NCBI GenBank assembly: GCA_003020965.1
Contig: PXRL01000017.1
Location: 1 to 64,000 of the forward strand
DNA length: 64,000 nt
DNA from: Halobacteriales archaeon QS_4_69_225
Lineage (GTDB): Archaea; Halobacteriota; Halobacteria; Halobacteriales; Haloarculaceae
Reading direction: 5' to 3'
Shown: piece after piece, positions 4,738 through 63,138 of the stretch
Numbering within the stretch: the stretch's first letter is position 1
How the letters are laid out: each line of letters opens with the position of its first letter
Made by a program: the position numbers and the translations under genes
The notes under the pieces: generated by a model
The model's input: the letters and a program-made list of their open reading frames with translations, nothing else
Told to the model about the DNA's origin: nothing
Database searches by the model: none

Positions 4738-6242
4738 CAGTGCACCACCTCCACGTCCCGCAGCAGTTCGAGGTCACACAGCGTCCCGTGGACGTCGCGG
4801 ATGTCCTCGAAGCCGTACATCAGCATCAGCAGTCGCTCCAGGGCCAGCCCCCAGGCCATCACGTCGCAGTCGACGCCCAACGGCCGGAGTACCTCCTCCC
4901 GGAAGAGACCGGAGTTGCCGATCTCGATGAGCTCGCCCGTTTCGGGGTGCTCGCCGAACAGCTCGAAGCTCGGCTCCGTGTAGGGGTTGTAGTGGGGCTT
5001 GAACTCCAGGTCGGTGATGCCGAACTGCTCGTAGAACTCCGCGAACGTCCCCATCAGGTCCCGGACGGACAGCTCCTCGGCCATCACCCACCCCTCGATC
5101 TGGAAGAACTCCAGCAGGTGGGTCGGGTCGAGCGTGTCGTTGCGGTAGACCTTCTCGACGCTGAAGTACCGCTGGGGCGGCTCCAGGTCGCCGGCGGCTT
5201 CCCCCGAGAGGTGCCGCATCGACAACGACGTGGTGTGGCCCCGCAGGTCGACCTGCTTTGCTACCTCGGGCGTCCACGGCGAGTGGTAGCCGTCACCGTC
5301 CTCGCCGACGCCCTCGCGGTGGGCGTTCTCGACGCCCGCCAGGAGGTCCTCCGGAATCGACTCCATCGGCGGCACGTCAAGTCCGAACTGGTCCCAGTGG
5401 GTCCGGGCCGGGTGGTCCTGGGGCATGAACAGACAATCGTTGATCCAGAACTCCGCGTCGGCGTGGGGGCCTTCCATCTCCCGGAACCCCATCCCGACGA
5501 GGACGTCCTTCACGCGATCGGCGGTCTGTCTGAGGATGTGCTCGCGGCCGCCGTCGACCGTCTCGGCGTCGGCCTCGACATTGTAGTCGGCGAACTCGAC
5601 GTCCTCCCAGTCGCCGGAGGTCAGCAGTTCGGGCGTCACCTGACCGACCGTCTCGGCGGCCTCGACGCCCTCCATCAGCGCGGTGACGCCGTCGTCGGAC
5701 AGCGTCACCGACCGGACCGTCGTCTCGGTCCGCTCGACGAGCCCGCGTGACTCGAGTCGGTCGAGGACGCCCGCATCGAGGTAGCCGGCCGACCCCTCGG
5801 CGACGGCCGAAAGCGCCTCGGCCTCCGGGTCGTCGTCGCGGGCCTCGGGGTCGGCGAGCACCGCGCCGCCGTCGATCTCGCCCAGTCCCTTCCGGGCGAG
5901 GTTCGTCAGCGCGATGTCGACCGCCTCGCCGTCGAGGTCGGCGGCCTCGACGAGTCGGCCCATCTCGGCCGGCTCCCCGTCGGCGCCGACCTCCAGGGCC
6001 GCCTCGTGGAGCCGCCGCTCGGGCAGCCCCGCCCCGCGGTACCGCTCGCCCTCGGCCGTGAGGGCGACCTCCTCGGCGACGTGCTCCTCGACGTCGAGCA
6101 GGCCCTCGTCCGCGAGCTCGAAGGCGGCCCGCGTGACGGCGGCGGGGTCCTCCTCGAGCTCGTCTGCGAGCTGTGCGATCGTCTTCGTCTCGGTCGCGCT
6201 GGCGGCTTCCAGCAGCGCGACCTGCGTGCCGGGTAGTCTCAT
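4737..6242 (-). CDS. pheS: Phenylalanine--tRNA ligase, alpha subunit
   Basis: This 501-residue catalytic subunit has an archaeal N-terminal part made of winged-helix modules (about residues 1-200: TETKTIAQLADELEEDPAAV and similar) followed by the class II catalytic core. Core features are FREMEGPHADAEFWINDCLF, QDHPARTHWDQF, YFSVEKVYRNDTLDPTHLLEFFQIEG, and the motif 3 region near the end, DVMAWGLALERLLMLMYG. It catalyses Phe-AMP formation and tRNA charging. It is first in a two-gene operon with pheT and may be controlled by the short ORF at 6333-6407. Confidence 0.96.
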   Translation of the reverse strand: MRLPGTQVALLEAASATETKTIAQLADELEEDPAAVTRAAFELADEGLLDVEEHVAEEVALTAEGERYRGAGLPERRLHEAALEVGADGEPAEMGRLVEAADLDGEAVDIALTNLARKGLGEIDGGAVLADPEARDDDPEAEALSAVAEGSAGYLDAGVLDRLESRGLVERTETTVRSVTLSDDGVTALMEGVEAAETVGQVTPELLTSGDWEDVEFADYNVEADAETVDGGREHILRQTADRVKDVLVGMGFREMEGPHADAEFWINDCLFMPQDHPARTHWDQFGLDVPPMESIPEDLLAGVENAHREGVGEDGDGYHSPWTPEVAKQVDLRGHTTSLSMRHLSGEAAGDLEPPQRYFSVEKVYRNDTLDPTHLLEFFQIEGWVMAEELSVRDLMGTFAEFYEQFGITDLEFKPHYNPYTEPSFELFGEHPETGELIEIGNSGLFREEVLRPLGVDCDVMAWGLALERLLMLMYGFEDIRDVHGTLCDLELLRDVEVVH

Positions 6243-6332
6243 TGGCGTGTGTGTGCGTGGCTGGCTGTTAGCGGTTCCGACTCGACGGCGGGGTTTCGGC
6301 GGCCGGCGCGGCGCCGACCGGCTCCACCCCGC

Positions 6333-6407
6333 CTACGCGGAGAAAAAGCCGAACCCGGCGGCGGTGCGGTCGGCGGCGACGCCGTCGGCGGCGGGGTCGG
6401 GTGCCAT
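6333..6407 (-). CDS. Candidate Phe leader peptide upstream of pheS
   Basis: This 24-codon ORF starts with ATG at 6407 and stops with TAG 90 nt before the pheS start. Its end reads AGFGFFSA, so all three phenylalanines fall in four residues next to the stop. A TATA-like element, GCTTTTGT at 6438-6431, lies about 28 nt upstream of this ATG, so a transcript starting there would be leaderless and would place the ORF at its very 5' end. Bacterial pheST has a Phe-rich leader peptide (PheM) for attenuation; an archaeal parallel is inference. GC-rich inverted repeats follow (for example around 6302-6318). It could also be a chance ORF. Confidence 0.45.
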   Translation of the reverse strand: MAPDPAADGVAADRTAAGFGFFSA

Positions 6408-6430
6408 ACGCAGCAGGTTGCCGCTCCGGA

Positions 6431-6440
6431 ACAAAAGCGT
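6431..6440 (-). promoter_or_regulatory. TATA box for the leader ORF and pheST
   Basis: The minus strand reads ACGCTTTTGT. Its centre is about 28 nt before the leader ORF ATG at 6407, the usual haloarchaeal spacing for a leaderless start. I see no equally placed element directly before pheS itself. Confidence 0.5.
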
Positions 6441-6491
6441 TGCGCCCGCGGCTCAGTACAACTCAACCTGGAGTCTCCGGCCTCAAGTCGA

Positions 6492-6510
6492 GAGGGACCG
6501 GAGGTCCCTC
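6492..6510. repeat. Triloop hairpin, first copy
   Basis: GAGGGACC and GGTCCCTC pair perfectly around a GGA loop. An identical 19-nt hairpin occurs exactly 200 nt later at 6692-6710. The two copies bracket the AT-containing stretch CTAACTATTTGAATAGG (6509-6525). Confidence 0.85.
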
Positions 6511-6604
6511 TAACTATTTGAATAGGCGCCTCGCGCCCGTGAGAAGAGGACGACTGAAGGGAGCGAGTAGGCCGGGGAGGAACCCGACATGACCGACCGC
6601 ATTT

Positions 6605-6786
6605 AATCAAGCGAGAGCGGGCCGGTCAGCCGGCGTCGGGTGGGAACTCGAACGGGGCCGACCGCTCGCGGAGCGAGCCGACGCAAGCCGCGAGGGACCG
6701 GAGGTCCCTCGGCCCGCTCGCGCGGCACCGCCGCGCGAGGACACCGCAGCGAAGCGAGGAGCGTCGTTCGGAAGACCTCCGGTCTT
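6605..6786 (+). repeat. Dispersed intergenic repeat, copy 1, with hairpin array
   Basis: The block starting GCGAGAGCGGGCCGGTCAGC and running through CGGGTGGGAACTCGAACGGG to the CGCTCGC region matches related blocks near 38,813 and, inverted, near 51,880. Its right half is a run of triloop hairpins: 6664-6678 (loop GGA), 6692-6710 (loop GGA), 6717-6739 (ten-pair stem, loop ACC) and 6772-6786 (loop TCC). The hairpins sit about 25-30 nt apart, with one degenerate position around 6750. No convincing gene lies between pheS and ahcY. Confidence 0.75.
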
Positions 6787-40520: not shown

Positions 40521-41344
40521 AGTTCCACGCTCATGACCCGGTCGGTGTCGTCGATCAGTCGCTCGGACTTGGGGTGGTCCCGCGTCACGGTGATGGGACA
40601 GTCGTCGGGGGCCTGGGCGTCGTCCGACGAGAGCATGTACTGCGGCCACTCGCGGTCGCCCTCGACGCCCCAGTCGCCGAGGTCGGCGTGTGGGCAGACG
40701 CCGTCGTACTCCTCGAGCCGCCCCTGGATGACGTCGCGGGCCCGCTGGCCGGCCTCGTGGTCGGCCGTGACGTCGAGGCCCTCGAACAGCGCCCGGGGCT
40801 GGAAGGTGACCTCCAGGCCGATCGGGCAGTACCGGCTCATCCGGTCGTCGTAGAACGGCGCCCGACAGGTCGGGAACATCGGCTCGCCGGCGAAGCAGAA
40901 CTCCCAGTAGGGGTCGTCCGGGTCCGTTGGGATGTCGTCGGGCCACGGCTCGGGGTCGTGGACGTGAAGGAATTGGAGAATGTGCCACAGCGCCTCGTGG
41001 TAGTCGGCCTCCGAGAGCGGGTCGGCCGGCGGCCGGAAGAACGTCACGAGCGAGGTGCGGTCGCCGTGGTCCTGCCAGGTGTCGAGATACGCCGCGAGCG
41101 TCCGGCCGAGCTCCAGCAGGGCGTCGGGGTCGGTCGTCGACGGCACCGCGGTGTACAGCGGCTCGCCGTCGCGGACGGACTCGGCGCCGAAGAAACACGG
41201 AAACGGCGACCCGCTCCGCTCGCCGGTCAGTCCCTCGTGGAACGTCCGCCAGTGGTCGGCGACCCAGTCGGGCGCCTCGCCCGATTCGACCCGCGTCTCG
41301 ACGGTCGACTGCTCGACCAGCGATCCGACGACGGAATCGGTCAT
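40517..41344 (-). CDS. YqcI/YcgG family protein (GntA-like), copy 1
   Basis: This 275-residue protein belongs to the YqcI/YcgG family (Pfam PF08892), which includes the heme-dependent N-hydroxylase GntA of guanitoxin biosynthesis. Family segments are [54 protein letters not shown] and [10 protein letters not shown]. It is coupled to a cysteine hydrolase. A paralogue is in the sulfotransferase operon at 59965. The substrate is unknown; N-hydroxylation is inference from relatives. Confidence 0.82.
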
Positions 41345-58532: not shown

Positions 58533-59423
58533 CTAAACGCTATCGGTTTCTCCGGGGTCCGGAGGTGCTGGAATGTCAGCCTCGCGGTGGCAGTTCGCAC
58601 ATAGGACGACGCACTTACGTATCTCAGCGTAAATCTCGCACAGCGATCGGCCGAACGATACCATGTGGGATATCTCCATCTCCTTGTCCGTCTCGTGGTG
58701 GAAGTCCAGACAGGCGGGATGGGCGGCGCCACAGCGTCGACAACCATTGCTGTCGCGCTTGTAGGCGGCAACCCATCGCCGACGCTCGGTCCGACGTTCT
58801 CGCTTCGACGGTTCCTGGACTTCCCGCGGACGGTCCGGCCACGAGGGGAGGTGCTCCGGGTCGGGACCGTCGTAGTGTTCCTTCCGGTGACAGTTGACGC
58901 AGAGAGGAATGCAGCGGTCGACCTCCTCGAGAACCCGCTGCTTCGAGTAGCCGTCCGCTATCATCTTCGAGACCGCGTGTTCCTTCTCGCCGGTGTGGTG
59001 AAAGTCGAGCGCCCGCGGTCGCCCCTCCCCGCAGCGGGTACACTCGACTTCGTCCCGTTTGAACTCGTAGAACCACCGCTGTAACCGCGCCCGACGCTCG
59101 TCTTTCACCTCGATTCGGTGCTCGCGGCGTTTGTAGTACCACCGCTGCTGGGCGGTGAGGTCCTCCCAGACGTAGCCATCCGGCAGCGCGACCCCGTCCG
59201 GCTTCGGTTGTATCTTCATGCCGCCCTCTCGGCCCCCGTCGCTTCTGGTGTACGTCTCCAGACCCGCAAGCGCCTTCGCCTCGTTCCATCCCCCGACGAG
59301 CCGAACAATGGTCGTCGAGGACGGCCGGATGTCGAGCTCTTCGTACTCCGTCTTCGTCGGCGACTCGCCCAACCGTCGGGCGGCCTCCCGGAGCGCCGCG
59401 ATGCACTCCGCCTCGGTGACCAT
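58533..59423 (-). CDS. HNH protein with homing-endonuclease-associated repeat
   Basis: This protein of 296 residues begins with a homing-endonuclease-associated repeat (CIAALREAARRLGESPTKTE then LVGGWNEAKALAGL). It carries two zinc-finger/HNH-like modules: CTRCGEGRPRALDFHHTGEK with CVNCHR, and CRRCGAAHPACLDFHHETDK with CANCHR. The two modules suggest duplication. A TATA-like AGTTTTTCTG near 59448 is about 25 nt before ATG 59423. Its place beside a tRNA gene is typical of mobile or integrated DNA. Confidence 0.85.
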   Translation of the reverse strand: MVTEAECIAALREAARRLGESPTKTEYEELDIRPSSTTIVRLVGGWNEAKALAGLETYTRSDGGREGGMKIQPKPDGVALPDGYVWEDLTAQQRWYYKRREHRIEVKDERRARLQRWFYEFKRDEVECTRCGEGRPRALDFHHTGEKEHAVSKMIADGYSKQRVLEEVDRCIPLCVNCHRKEHYDGPDPEHLPSWPDRPREVQEPSKRERRTERRRWVAAYKRDSNGCRRCGAAHPACLDFHHETDKEMEISHMVSFGRSLCEIYAEIRKCVVLCANCHREADIPAPPDPGETDSV

Positions 59424-59463
59424 GCACCGGTTGCCCACTCCTTCACAGAAAAACTCTGGCCGA

Positions 59464-59892
59464 TCACCCCTGGACGGTCGCCTCGCGTTCGAGTTCGTCG
59501 AAGACCTCGCGCACCCGTCGCTCGATCTCGTCGCGGATCTCCCGGACGCGATCGAGGTCTGCGCCGTCGGGGTCCGGCAGCGCCCAGTCGCGGACGTCCG
59601 TGTCGGCGTCCAACTCGAGCGTCGAACAGCCCATCGTGGCGACCAGCCGGCAGGACTCCAGCATGTCGGTCGGGATTTCGCGCGGTTCCCGTCCGGAGAG
59701 GTCGATTCCGCGCTCGTCCATGACCTCGACGACTTCGGGATGGACGGCGTCGGCGGAGTCGGTGCCGCCGGTCACCACCTCGACGTCGAGGTCCTGGCGG
59801 TCGGCCTCCCGGCGGGCGAAGGCCGCCGATATCTGGCTTCGGCCGGCGTTCTGGACGCAGACGAAGGCCACTCGCGGCGCGTCGGACTCCAT
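59464..59892 (-). CDS. Low-molecular-weight phosphatase/arsenate reductase-like protein
   Basis: This 142-residue protein has the LMW phosphatase P-loop VCVQNAGRSQISAAFARR (CxxNxxRS) and the Asp loop WALPDPDGADLDRVREIRDE. Thioredoxin-coupled ArsC enzymes share this fold. Two later Cys (ESCRLVATMGCSTLELDADT) could form the disulfide relay of an arsenate reductase. It follows the YqcI/YcgG gene 72 nt downstream on the same strand, so it may or may not belong to that operon. Confidence 0.82.
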   Translation of the reverse strand: MESDAPRVAFVCVQNAGRSQISAAFARREADRQDLDVEVVTGGTDSADAVHPEVVEVMDERGIDLSGREPREIPTDMLESCRLVATMGCSTLELDADTDVRDWALPDPDGADLDRVREIRDEIERRVREVFDELEREATVQG

Positions 59893-59964: not shown

Positions 59965-60711
59965 CTACCGCACGTCCATCTCGAAGGGCAGCTCGCTGAG
60001 ACTCTCCTCGTTCGATGTCGGGGGGAGATACTGTTTCCACTCCCGAGCGGCGGGATCGCCGTAATCTCCGATGTCGGGATGGGGATCGACGTCGTCGTAG
60101 TCCGCCAACCGGTCTCTGATGATCGAACGGGCCTGCATGCCTTCCGTCGTGTCGCCGGTGATGTCGTCGAGTGTTCCGCGTGGCTGGATCGTCATCTCCA
60201 GTCCGTCCGGGGTGTGTCTGCTCTTTCGATCCGTGTAGAACGGCGCACGTCCGACGACGAACATCGGTTCCCCGGCAAAGCAGAACTCCCATTCGGGATC
60301 GTCGGGGTCCGTGGGGACGTCGCTCGGCCACGGCTCCGGGTCCCGGTGATGAAGGAACTCGAGAACGCTCCAGAAGCGGTCGCGGTACTCCGCTTCACTC
60401 CGAACTCCGTCCGGAGGTTCGAAAAACACCACGAGCGTCGTCCGATCGGCTATCGACCGATACCGTTCGAGGTACTGTCGCAATCCCTCTCGCAGTTTCA
60501 AAAGCGCATCGCGGTCGCGAGCGTCCCCGGCGAAGAGGTACCGGGCGGTGTCGCCGCGTTCGGCCTCGACCGCGAAGTAACACGGATATGGAGTCTCCCG
60601 CATCGTCTCCCTGAACGTGAGATACCGCTGTTTCTTCCACCCGAACAGCTCTCCGGTCTCTATCGCGTCCGTCAGTTCGATCTGATCGAACAGGAGGCCT
60701 GCGTCATTCAT
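59965..60711 (-). CDS. YqcI/YcgG family protein (GntA-like), copy 2
   Basis: This 248-residue protein shares family blocks with the paralogue at 40517: [50 protein letters not shown] and DPHPDIGDYG. A Cys in copy 1 (PTCRAPFY) is replaced here by Gly. The family includes the heme-dependent N-hydroxylase GntA. Its ATG lies 8 nt inside the 3' end of the APS kinase fusion gene, tying it to the sulfation operon. Confidence 0.82.
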   Translation of the reverse strand: MNDAGLLFDQIELTDAIETGELFGWKKQRYLTFRETMRETPYPCYFAVEAERGDTARYLFAGDARDRDALLKLREGLRQYLERYRSIADRTTLVVFFEPPDGVRSEAEYRDRFWSVLEFLHHRDPEPWPSDVPTDPDDPEWEFCFAGEPMFVVGRAPFYTDRKSRHTPDGLEMTIQPRGTLDDITGDTTEGMQARSIIRDRLADYDDVDPHPDIGDYGDPAAREWKQYLPPTSNEESLSELPFEMDVR

Positions 60712-61591
60712 TCGTACGGTGTCGGCGGGACCCGTTCGCTCCCAGGTGCTGTCCGGCGATGAGTTCGCTCTTCTCGTACTTCTCGCGGGTCTCCGTTCCA
60801 CTGATTTCTGCCACCTCCTGGGGGACCGAGACGACGGAGTAGCCGACGTCGCGCCCGATGGCCACGGTGTCGACGTCCGGGAGTATCACCGTCTCGACGT
60901 TCGGGTGGTCCTCGTAGACGTTCTCGATGAGTTCTCTGCGCTCCTGGGCCGTGAGAGGGTTCTTCTCGCCGAGTTCCGTGTCGCGGATCGCGATGACGAC
61001 GCGCTTGCCGTTGTCCGCGGCGGAGTCGATGATGGTGCGGTGGCCGTCGTGGAGCGGTTGCCAGCGACCGATGAACACGTGGCTCGGCTCGAACTTGCGG
61101 TCGAGCTCCGCGTTGATTCGCTTTATGTTCGCTTCCTTGGAGTGTGTCGCCGTTCGGACTTCGACCTCGACCTCCGGTCTCTCGGGTTCCTCGAACGGCG
61201 CGTCGATACCGGTGAACCCCTCGATTTCGCCGTTGCGAGCCCGTTCGTACATCCCCTTCACGTCGCGTTGCTCGCACACTTCGAGGGGTGCGTTGACGTA
61301 CACGAACGAGACGTTCTCGAGTGACTCGGCGATCAGCTCTCGCTGGGACCGGTACGGGGTGATGAACGACGCGACGACGTCGAACCCCTGGTCGTTCAGC
61401 GCCCGGGCGACCCCGGCGGCCCGTCTGAGGTTTTCGGTCCGATCCTCCTTGGAGAATCCGAGGTCCGAGTTGAGGGTGTCCCGGAGGTAATCCCCGTCGA
61501 GGTGGACCGTCTTCGGACCGATCAGTCCCTCGGCGAGCGTCGTCTTTCCGGAACACGGCAGACCGAACAGCCAGGTAGTCGTGCCGATCAT
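60704..61591 (-). CDS. APS kinase fused to a nucleotidylyltransferase
   Basis: This 295-residue fusion has a full APS kinase domain (residues 1-165): P-loop FGLPCSGKTTLAEGL, LDGDYLRDTLNSDLGFSKED, SFITPYRSQRE and KGMYERARNGEIEGFTGIDA. The second domain has the HxGH-type motif FIGRWQPLHDGHRTIIDSA and ISGTETREKY, as in NMN/pantetheine adenylyltransferases and ATP sulfurylase relatives. It could supply PAPS, or also activate another substrate. The ATG overlaps the small upstream gene by four bases. Confidence 0.88.
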   Translation of the reverse strand: MIGTTTWLFGLPCSGKTTLAEGLIGPKTVHLDGDYLRDTLNSDLGFSKEDRTENLRRAAGVARALNDQGFDVVASFITPYRSQRELIAESLENVSFVYVNAPLEVCEQRDVKGMYERARNGEIEGFTGIDAPFEEPERPEVEVEVRTATHSKEANIKRINAELDRKFEPSHVFIGRWQPLHDGHRTIIDSAADNGKRVVIAIRDTELGEKNPLTAQERRELIENVYEDHPNVETVILPDVDTVAIGRDVGYSVVSVPQEVAEISGTETREKYEKSELIAGQHLGANGSRRHRTNE

Positions 61592-61734
61592 CGGTTGCGC
61601 TTTCCTCCGTCTCCTCCAGGAAAAGCGGACGCGCCCGTATCGCCCGCGCCCGCGCTCTCGCCCTCGCCGATGGTAGCGGGTTCGACCCGATGCGGTTCGA
61701 CCGTCGACGCCGCGTTCGATGTGCTGTCTGACAT
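61588..61734 (-). CDS. Small disordered protein coupled to the APS kinase gene
   Basis: This 48-residue acidic, low-complexity protein starts SDSTSNAASTVEPHRVEPAT and ends GGDGGKRNR. An SD-like GAGG precedes the ATG by about 7 nt. Its stop overlaps the APS kinase ATG (ATGA). The frame is open back to an ATG at 61863 that overlaps the sulfotransferase stop, giving a 91-residue alternative with an Arg-rich start. Function unknown; a carrier or substrate role is only a guess. Confidence 0.5.
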   Translation of the reverse strand: MSDSTSNAASTVEPHRVEPATIGEGESAGAGDTGASAFPGGDGGKRNR

Positions 61735-61853
61735 GGGTATCGCCTCGTTTTGCCGTGCTCGTGCGGTTCGTCCTCGTCGGATCGTCGGCCGCTGCCGCAT
61801 CTGCACCGACCGGCGTGCGTCCTCGCCGCCGCCGCGGGCCGGTGTCGCCTCGC

Positions 61854-62993
61854 TCAGATCCATTCCGACTCCTCCGTGTATCCCAGTCTCTCGACCACCT
61901 CGGTGTACGTCTCGCCGGCTCGCTCGAGCGCGCTCCCCACGAGGTCCTCCCTGTCTCGCCAGCGAGCGCGTCTCGGTTCCTTCGTCGTCATCACCTGCGC
62001 CGGGGCTTCGACGTACTCGGAGAGCAGCGGCGACTCGCCGAGTTCGGCGAACTCGACGATCTCCCGAACGGTGGAGCGGGTGTCGGTGAGGAGGTCCTCG
62101 AACCGGACCCGGAGGACGTCCTCGTAGGCGTCGGGGAGGTCGTAGCACCACAGAGAGCCGTCGTAGTCGTCGAGATCGAGACTCCCCACGTCGTACGTCT
62201 GGAACCCTCTGTTCAGCCGCCAGCCGTCGTAGAGTCCGTTGATCGACGCTGCCGGGTTCCGCGTGAGGTGGACGACCCGGACGTCGGTCTCGGGGAACAA
62301 TCGGTTGCGAATCCACCGAAGCCGGTAGGCGTCGCCGCTCGCTTTCAACACGAGCGTCCGCTCGAAGTCGTCCGCCCTGAGACCGCGCTTGTGGCGGTGT
62401 GAGGTGACGAACGGCCGGTCTTCGATCGTCTCGGTCTCGAACGGGCTGTCCGCGTCTCGGTCCGCGTACTCGTCGTACTGCAGGGTCGGGATACCGAGCC
62501 CCTCGAGTATCTCGTCGAGCGACGCACCGTCGAGCAACCGTTCGCGGATCCGCTCGTAGGGGAGCTCCCGGTCGGGAAACTGCAGCGGGAGCCGGACGAG
62601 CGCGTTATCTACGCGATGAGCGCGGTCGCCGGACCGCTCGGTCGCCCCGACCTCCGCGAGGAGATCCGTCAGAACCGTCTCACGGTCGAACGACCCGAAA
62701 TCGGCCGGGACCACGTCCGACTCGAGTGCCGGATAACAGACTCCGTTCAGCATGAACCACCGGTCGTGTTCGCCGTCGAGACTGCACGTGTCCTCGTGGT
62801 GTCGGAGGATATCGAAGAGGAGACTGCTGCCTCCCCTCGGGGCCGTCGCGATGAGCAGTACGCTGTCGAAGTCGTCGGCCCGGTACTCCGACAGAACCGA
62901 TCGTTTTTCCTCCGAGATGACCTCGTTTTTCACGCGCTCGTAGTTCCGTCTCGCTCGCTCTCGGTGGTCGTCCGGCGGTCGTTCGAAACTCAC
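61854..62993 (-). CDS. Sulfotransferase family protein
   Basis: This 379-residue protein has the 5'-phosphosulfate-binding loop LLIATAPRGGSSLLFDILRH and the 3'-phosphate site VRVVHLTRNPAASINGLYDG, so it should transfer sulfate from PAPS. The middle region is variable and helical and carries the acceptor site. It starts with GTG at 62993, preceded by GGAGGTGG (an unusually strong SD), and overlaps the tiny ORF upstream by four bases. Confidence 0.88.
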   Translation of the reverse strand: MSFERPPDDHRERARRNYERVKNEVISEEKRSVLSEYRADDFDSVLLIATAPRGGSSLLFDILRHHEDTCSLDGEHDRWFMLNGVCYPALESDVVPADFGSFDRETVLTDLLAEVGATERSGDRAHRVDNALVRLPLQFPDRELPYERIRERLLDGASLDEILEGLGIPTLQYDEYADRDADSPFETETIEDRPFVTSHRHKRGLRADDFERTLVLKASGDAYRLRWIRNRLFPETDVRVVHLTRNPAASINGLYDGWRLNRGFQTYDVGSLDLDDYDGSLWCYDLPDAYEDVLRVRFEDLLTDTRSTVREIVEFAELGESPLLSEYVEAPAQVMTTKEPRRARWRDREDLVGSALERAGETYTEVVERLGYTEESEWI

Positions 62994-63058
62994 CGGCCGC
63001 CACCTCCCGCTACCGTTCCCGGATCGACCCGGAGCCGGGACTGACGGTTCGGTTTCAT
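62990..63058 (-). CDS. Tiny ORF overlapping the sulfotransferase start
   Basis: This 22-residue ORF (MKPNRQSRLRVDPG and a Gly-rich end) overlaps the ORF before it (ATGA) and the sulfotransferase start (GTGA). The SD of the sulfotransferase lies inside it, so it may simply be a coupling frame. No coding signal beyond the overlaps. Confidence 0.3.
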   Translation of the reverse strand: MKPNRQSRLRVDPGTVAGGGGR

Positions 63059-63138
63059 TCGTCGTAATCGAGCGTTCGTCGTTCGCACTCGCGAGTTTCG
63101 GGCTGCTCCGCGGTCCGAGGATCGTAGAGTTCGGACAT
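63055..63138 (-). CDS. Candidate 27-residue acidic tyrosine peptide
   Basis: This short ORF starts SELYDPRT and ends RRTLDYDE, so both tyrosines are next to acidic residues. It overlaps the next ORF by four bases. An in-frame ATG at 63297 would make an 80-residue version with the same end. Tyrosines in acidic surroundings are the usual targets of tyrosylprotein sulfotransferases, and a sulfotransferase follows directly, but this is inference. It could be spurious. Confidence 0.35.
   Translation of the reverse strand: MSELYDPRTAEQPETRECERRTLDYDE

Follow-up and report, generated by a model that had tools for sequence, protein, structure and literature searches.

Adenosine 5'-phosphosulfate (APS) is formed by two generally recognised routes, Sat and CysDN. 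Here we describe a gene cassette of Halobacteriales archaeon QS_4_69_225, located in a 64,000-nucleotide stretch of DNA (contig PXRL01000017.1, positions 1 to 64,000; hereafter the window), in which an APS kinase is fused to a short nucleotidyltransferase (NTase) domain resembling nicotinamide mononucleotide adenylyltransferases (NMNATs); we propose that this fusion is a 3'-phosphoadenosine 5'-phosphosulfate (PAPS) synthase whose adenylylating half is new. Its closest described counterparts are CysD with CysN-CysC and the bifunctional PAPS synthases, such as human PAPSS1, in which ATP sulfurylase and APS kinase are combined. As in these systems, an APS kinase is fused or coupled to a putative APS maker, sulfotransferase and CysQ-like genes lie nearby, and an HxGH nucleotidyltransferase motif is present; mutation of H425/H428 in human PAPSS1 is reported to abolish ATP sulfurylase (PMC11697783). 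Unlike CysD/CysN, the adenylylating half of the fusion is a short NMNAT-like domain, and the protein has no match to the Sat-type ATP sulfurylase family PF01747.

The other genes of the cassette also have described relatives. AglA, GntA and DcsA are YqcI/YcgG heme N-hydroxylases; they share with the window protein the family, the Cys ligand, the heme arginines and the Phe/Gln/Arg of the guanidine site (PMC12866846), but the window protein falls under the GntA cut-off, has changed AglA phosphonate contacts, is archaeal and sits in a sulfation operon. Sulfation and guanidine chemistry meet in one natural product in the clethramycin/mediomycin pathway, in which a sulfotransferase and a guanidine hydrolase (amidinohydrolysis) act; there, however, the product is a polyketide, the amidinohydrolase is encoded at another chromosomal site, and nothing points to the fusion (PMC5704753). 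A literature search found no description of the fusion or of the cassette, most subscription papers and preprints being outside its reach.

On the minus strand, the gene order is sulfotransferase, small open reading frame (ORF), fusion and YqcI/YcgG, with the following features:

61854..62993, minus strand: sulfotransferase of the Sulfotransfer_3 family (PF13469, PF00685), with an in-frame 84-bp gap relative to its homologues.
61588..61863, minus strand: small ORF, probable decayed remnant of a guanidine-modifying gene like arginine deiminase (ADI) or dimethylarginine dimethylaminohydrolase (DDAH) (dN/dS about 1, series of remnants, full gene at the equivalent place in loci L026, L028, L096, L097 and L030).
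60704..61591, minus strand: APS kinase–NMNAT-like NTase fusion, proposed complete PAPS synthase (PF01583, PF01467, motifs, distribution, synteny).
61163..61585, minus strand: APS kinase domain of the fusion, residues 3-143 (PF01583, TIGR00455).
60785..61078, minus strand: NMNAT-like NTase domain of the fusion, about residues 172-269, proposed from its context as an ATP sulfurylase.
59965..60711, minus strand: predicted heme N-hydroxylase of the YqcI/YcgG family, related to AglA and GntA (PF08892, AglA match, Cys44).

The sulfotransferase and the small ORF overlap by 10 bases, the small ORF and the fusion by 4, and the fusion and YqcI by 8. The preliminary description of this DNA, made from the sequence alone, had proposed four overlapping ORFs of named families; the coordinates, overlaps and Pfam matches bear this out, except at the end of the interval: the ATG at 63138 belongs to a 27-aa ORF of its own (63138-63055) and not to the sulfotransferase, which starts with a GTG at 62993 with GGAGGTG just 5' of it. 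Among 20 loci compared, the 27-aa ORF is present only in the window and a sister metagenome-assembled genome (MAG), and it was rejected as a gene because it evolves neutrally (dN/dS 1.23, against QS_8 only). When dN/dS was computed against the two sister MAGs QS_8 and QS_1, the values were 0.17 and 0.27 for the sulfotransferase, 0.14 and 0.18 for the fusion, and 0.10 and 0.13 for YqcI, i.e. these three genes are under purifying selection.

The first domain of the fusion is an APS kinase by all models used (PF01583, 159.9 bits against a cut-off of 21.1; TIGR00455, 163.7 bits against 138.7), and its P-loop Gly-Lys, DGD, RDVKGxY and FTG, which we take to be typical APS kinase motifs, are invariant in 20 aligned rows. 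A Campylobacter-type CDP-amidate kinase was also considered; the 163.7 bits of the fusion to apsK exceed the cut-off of that model. The second domain matches PF01467 (39 bits, cut-off 21), with H181 and H184 of the HxGH motif invariant. The motifs GRWQPxHxGH, GRxVGY and SxTxxR are invariant in 22 rows and, at the level of sequence, set this NTase domain apart as a distinct family.

The function of the NTase domain is suggested by where the fusion occurs. Among 146 haloarchaeal relatives, 14 genomes give a hit to the fusion protein (E <=1e-10), eight with the fusion and six with a stand-alone APS kinase only. An ATP sulfurylase (PF01747) is encoded at neighbouring coordinates in all six genomes with a stand-alone kinase, whereas none of the eight with the fusion has it (Fisher p 3.3e-4, phylogeny ignored). 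Likewise, neither PF01747 nor a CysD over the cut-off was found in any of the 16 fusion genomes tested, which belong to three groups; weak matches to the CysD model (<=35.1 bits) occur in 14 of the 16, and also in control genomes.

A second contrast is provided by the class of genome L029, here called the Poseidoniales class, of which 145 genomes were surveyed. A match to the NTase family of at least 61 bits was found in 27 of them (at least 142 bits in 23), and NMNAT-type matches to the same profile, at <=53 bits, are separated from these 27 family members. The four weaker members are G161, at a contig end, G206, which is partial, and the special cases G172 and G178. PF01747 was found in 0/145 genomes of the class. 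An APS kinase of the CysN-CysC type (CysNC) is present in 15/145, in frames of 642-668 aa in 13 and cut short in two, and all 15 have a CysD match (partial in G293). If G227 is left out, CysD is present in 14/14 CysNC genomes (over the cut-off in 13, partial in G293) and in 0/26 fusion genomes. In addition, G260 (G260:C110:5759-6634) has a CysD match of 393.7 bits, just under the cut-off, and lacks a strong APS kinase match.

The two gene sets also share their surroundings. Eight of the 15 CysNC loci were read, and five of them (L169, L170, L172, L173 and L174) show the order CysQ-like gene, CysD, CysNC, one gene, FtsY; L171 fits this order up to the contig end at which it stops, and L175 and L176 have CysD-CysNC elsewhere. 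Of the 27 fusion loci 13 were read, and the CysQ-like gene and FtsY are both close to the fusion in 10 of these, FtsY in 12, with a sulfotransferase gene beside the fusion in eight (Pfam identities of the neighbours were checked on L170 and L182). Because the CysQ-like and FtsY neighbours are shared, the fusion occupies in its carriers the place that CysD-CysNC has in relatives. Since, in addition, the fusion genomes lack a known ATP sulfurylase, the NTase domain is most likely the part that makes APS.

In Omnitrophota, the fusion was found in 7/384 genomes, with the domain order reversed wherever a full-length protein could be read. Four loci (L030, L196, L197 and L198) contain, in this order, a sulfotransferase, an ADI-like gene and the fusion, followed by methyltransferase-like and B12-radical-SAM-like genes; a second sulfotransferase lies upstream in three of them, and L197 ends at the sulfotransferase. 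L199 and L200 are without such neighbours, and L201 is partial (Pfam identities were checked on L196). The arrangement in L196 (5672-12107), L198 and L030, i.e. two sulfotransferases, an ADI-like gene, a PAPS-synthase-like fusion, a methyltransferase and a B12-binding radical SAM gene, resembles a natural-product cluster.

On the strength of the distribution, of the synteny and of the exchange with CysD-CysNC, we consider it likely that the fusion is a full PAPS synthase. The preliminary description had suggested that its second domain could add an adenylyl group to a product; by distribution and synteny, the formation of APS from sulfate is the likelier role. If true, such a third APS-making type would correct the annotation of sulfur metabolism in marine Group II archaea, and the fusion would be a compact PAPS synthase for enzymology. 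In an earlier study, MGIIb is credited with the potential via cysD/cysN/cysC, and all MGIIa MAGs of that study are given as lacking APS kinase and the subunits of ATP sulfurylase (PMC6864105).

In haloarchaea, 21 loci were collected, all through the fusion, from a scan of named genomes, from plasmid records and from relatives (the refetched loci L101, L102, L118, L120 and L121 and short first fetches were left out). In these loci, the sulfotransferase lies upstream of the fusion in 21/21, with only the gene in the slot of the small ORF, or its remnant, in between. YqcI accompanies both in 17/21, 3' of the fusion in 15 and divergently upstream of the sulfotransferase in two; the remaining four loci (three genomes) have ArgG 3' of the fusion and a full slot gene, and no cassette YqcI was found in them. 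The carriers include Natrialba asiatica, Natrinema zhouii, Haladaptatus halobius, H. salinisoli, H. pallidirubidus, Halostagnicola larsenii, two Natronococcus, Haloprofundus, Halegenticoccus, Halalkalicoccus, Halocatena and Haloarcula amylovorans, and the cassette is on nine plasmid records. A comparison of 4-kb flanks found a similar stretch in 15 flank pairs, most flanks being different, so that the cassette lies at many different places. The cassette, often plasmid-borne, is probably mobile and translationally coupled, and the joint occurrence of its genes, on which the pathway in the preliminary description depended, extends well beyond the window genome. Four loci, with both cassette types among them, have a divergent gene upstream of the sulfotransferase (L113:4991-5803, L114:5081-5887, L096:5511-6338 and L097:5491-6303); where annotated it is a PHP-domain gene, Pfam having been checked for L113 only.

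The YqcI protein of the window clearly exceeds the PF08892 cut-off (244.2 bits against 27) and, among PDB sequences, matches AglA at 2.1e-42, while it is below the cut-off of the GntA equivalog NF041366 (55.7 against 145 bits). In AglA, the heme is ligated by Cys44 and its carboxylates are held by R166/K196/R200; the substrate is placed by F152, Q177, R179 and F182, and the phosphonate is bound by S221/T222 (PMC12866846). The window protein retains C44, F152, R166, Q177, R179 and R200 and has Arg in place of K196, and the equivalent of the Cys44 heme ligand is present in 16/16 cassette YqcI proteins. By family and active-site residues, it is predicted to be a cysteine-ligated heme enzyme, putatively a guanidine N-hydroxylase. 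In a tree, a branch with bootstrap 96 and SH-aLRT 74, the latter value too low for it to count as fully supported, separates the cassette proteins from 12 other haloarchaeal YqcI proteins; a motif filter had been passed by 14/31 candidate loci, and two rows labelled as other haloarchaeal proteins were refetched cassette copies. Another YqcI/YcgG gene of the window, not part of the cassette (40592-41212, minus strand, 238.7 bits), groups with the other haloarchaeal proteins (row L002).

The small ORF, which the preliminary description had listed as part of the operon, evolves neutrally (dN/dS 1.18 and 0.98 against the two sister MAGs, i.e. no purifying selection), and a role for it as a working part is not supported. 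In the four ArgG-type haloarchaeal loci, as in four loci of Omnitrophota, its slot holds a protein of 286-296 aa. The Omnitrophota protein of L030 matches the ADI family PF02274 over the cut-off (4.8e-19), whereas the full-length haloarchaeal proteins match DDAH and arginine dihydrolase models below the cut-offs and also match the solved protein Sll1336 (2e-5). Glu, His and Cys, presumably the expected catalytic set of ADI/DDAH-type enzymes, are invariant in 5/5 full-length slot proteins. In the 17 YqcI-type loci the slot holds remnants only: a translated match to the full gene was found in 11/17, premature stops in the full-gene frame in 8/17, and 8/17 pass the inclusion line of the full-gene profile, although one of these, QS_8 (4.8 bits), scores no better than its own shuffles. 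The window ORF itself scores -0.3 bits against this profile, no more than shuffled sequences do (1.1 bits for the best of 200). From its position, its MDLSE start and the graded series, it is nonetheless very probably a relic of the ADI/DDAH-like gene. A precursor peptide or a regulator was ruled out by the neutral evolution and by the early stops in 8/17 slots. ArgG copies over the cut-off number two in G150, two in G151 and three in G124, and one in 10/11 other carriers; the window genome (G000; 2.95 Mb, 28 contigs, 88.96% completeness) has none, perhaps owing to its incompleteness, so that an extra ArgG is confined to the three ArgG-type genomes among 14 carriers. The ADI/DDAH-like protein in the slot, together with the extra ArgG downstream, strengthens the idea of a guanidine substrate.

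Taken as a whole, these data can be read as a mobile sulfation cassette with an APS-making fusion and an arginine-type acceptor, a reading which we regard as reasonably probable. The NTase domain, judging from its context, would adenylylate sulfate to APS in place of a canonical ATP sulfurylase, and the fused APS kinase, by family, would convert APS to PAPS at once, pulling the unfavourable first reaction. The sulfotransferase, likewise by family, would transfer sulfate from PAPS to a small acceptor, and YqcI/YcgG, from its family and active-site residues, may hydroxylate a guanidine nitrogen of an arginine-derived acceptor or intermediate, before or after sulfation; the small protein would be what is left of the ADI/DDAH-like, guanidine-modifying enzyme retained in the other cassette type. 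A guanidine- or arginine-derived product, suggested by the partner enzymes, is slightly favoured, and the earlier proposal of N-hydroxylation and sulfation of an amine, guanidine or peptide is, to this extent, upheld by the gene linkage, the heme thiolate and most AglA guanidine-site residues of YqcI, and the ADI/DDAH-like slot. The haloarchaeal cassette would point to a small archaeal molecule, so far undescribed, in which sulfate and guanidine chemistry are combined. Only tentatively do we put forward the widest form of the proposal, namely an undescribed class of ATP sulfurylase, in which a compact NMNAT-like domain and an APS kinase, joined in either order, would make up a stand-alone PAPS synthase in haloarchaea, the Poseidoniales class and Omnitrophota, and would supply in haloarchaea a mobile pathway leading to an arginine-type metabolite that is sulfated and N-hydroxylated.

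A number of observations, on the fusion as well as on its partners, weigh against this reading. In the haloarchaea G109 and G121, PF01747 is present but no APS kinase match, and several of the genomes surveyed are incomplete MAGs. In the Poseidoniales class, G227 carries both the fusion and CysD with CysNC; G186 (G186:C24:8455-8895, 119.7 bits) has an APS kinase match without CysD, PF01747 or the NTase family, and so have G271 and G228, with partial matches; the fusion of G161 runs into a contig end, and G172 and G178 have kinase and NTase in separate open frames. The AlphaFold2 model of the fusion is poor (mean pLDDT 49.7), too poor for an active-site comparison. The NTase sequence, moreover, resembles NMNAT rather than ATP sulfurylase, its closest PDB sequences being archaeal NMNATs (3.2e-9), so that the domain could be an ordinary or specialised adenylyltransferase acting on NMN or another substrate, for cofactor supply or for adenylylation of the product, with APS coming from elsewhere. 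The same idea would accommodate the phage and Microvirga relatives, in which a similar NTase is joined to a kinase without APS kinase lid motifs (among the phage proteins, only that of the Xanthomonas phage was aligned), suggesting that the NTase clade may serve other substrates, and the finding that a second, NMNAT-type match is present in only 6/27 fusion genomes of the Poseidoniales class against 85/118 others. Yet six CysD-CysNC genomes at the same locus (G238, G240, G268, G273, G283 and G287) also have no NTase/NMNAT profile match at E 1e-8, so the missing NMNAT matches look like a trait of the clade and not of the fusion; the score of the fusion against the NMNAT equivalog TIGR01527 is 32.2 bits, far under the cut-off of 181.2; and the lack of a known ATP sulfurylase in all 16 carriers and the in-place exchange with CysD-CysNC also speak against it. 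On balance, a non-APS adenylyltransferase seems improbable.

Of the partners, the window YqcI has Leu in place of F182 and changed AglA phosphonate contacts S221/T222, R179 is Ala in 2/16 cassette copies and R200 is changed in 2/16, and many haloarchaea have YqcI genes apart from the cassette (76/146 genomes). One could imagine that YqcI and the guanidine enzymes are passengers, and that glycans or lipids of the cell surface are the targets of the sulfotransferase: sulfotransferases that act on N-glycans are known from haloarchaea (PMC11980604), other sulfotransferases lie beside the fusion in Poseidoniales-class genomes, and in one locus, L115, a DolP-mannose mannosyltransferase is about 2 kb upstream of the sulfotransferase gene. 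However, besides sulfotransferase, slot gene, fusion, YqcI and ArgG, no family occurs in more than 3/17 grouped loci (no dedicated glycosyltransferase search was made), sulfotransferase, fusion and guanidine-type enzyme stay linked while the flanks mostly differ, and in the four Omnitrophota loci the sulfotransferase and the ADI-like gene are again linked, in the company of methyltransferase and radical-SAM genes; we therefore give the surface-glycan explanation little credit. The sulfotransferase also bears on the state of the window copy. It is over the PF13469 cut-off (36.3 bits against 27; PF00685, 27.9 bits), but is 379 aa long against 407 aa in 14 aligned haloarchaeal homologues, lacking a 28-aa stretch that is kept in 15/15 homologues, including the Omnitrophota one; the junction of this deletion lies near position 62132 of the window. 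The window copy of this gene may thus be impaired or mis-assembled, and with the relic small ORF and the fragmented, incomplete assembly one might regard the entire cassette as decaying or mis-assembled and idle in the window organism, which would be compatible with the proposed sulfation pathway in the other carriers. Because purifying selection has acted on sulfotransferase, fusion and YqcI along the lineage, and the sulfotransferase of the sister MAG is full-length, we consider an idle cassette rather unlikely.

Some further observations concern relatives and neighbours of the cassette. Anti-phage defence was rejected as a role, since PADLOC gave no match at E 0.01 to the sulfotransferase, the fusion, YqcI or a full-length slot protein. 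Kinase–NTase proteins with the NTase motifs in common are encoded by Xanthomonas, Stenotrophomonas and Clavibacter phages and by a Microvirga plasmid (L123:2983-3729; L122, about 5953-6765). Directly 3' of the cassette, the window contains a gene of the low-molecular-weight phosphatase family (59464-59892, minus strand) and an HNH endonuclease gene with a homing-endonuclease repeat (58533-59438, minus strand), and both are also found 3' of the cassette in the sister MAG QS_8.

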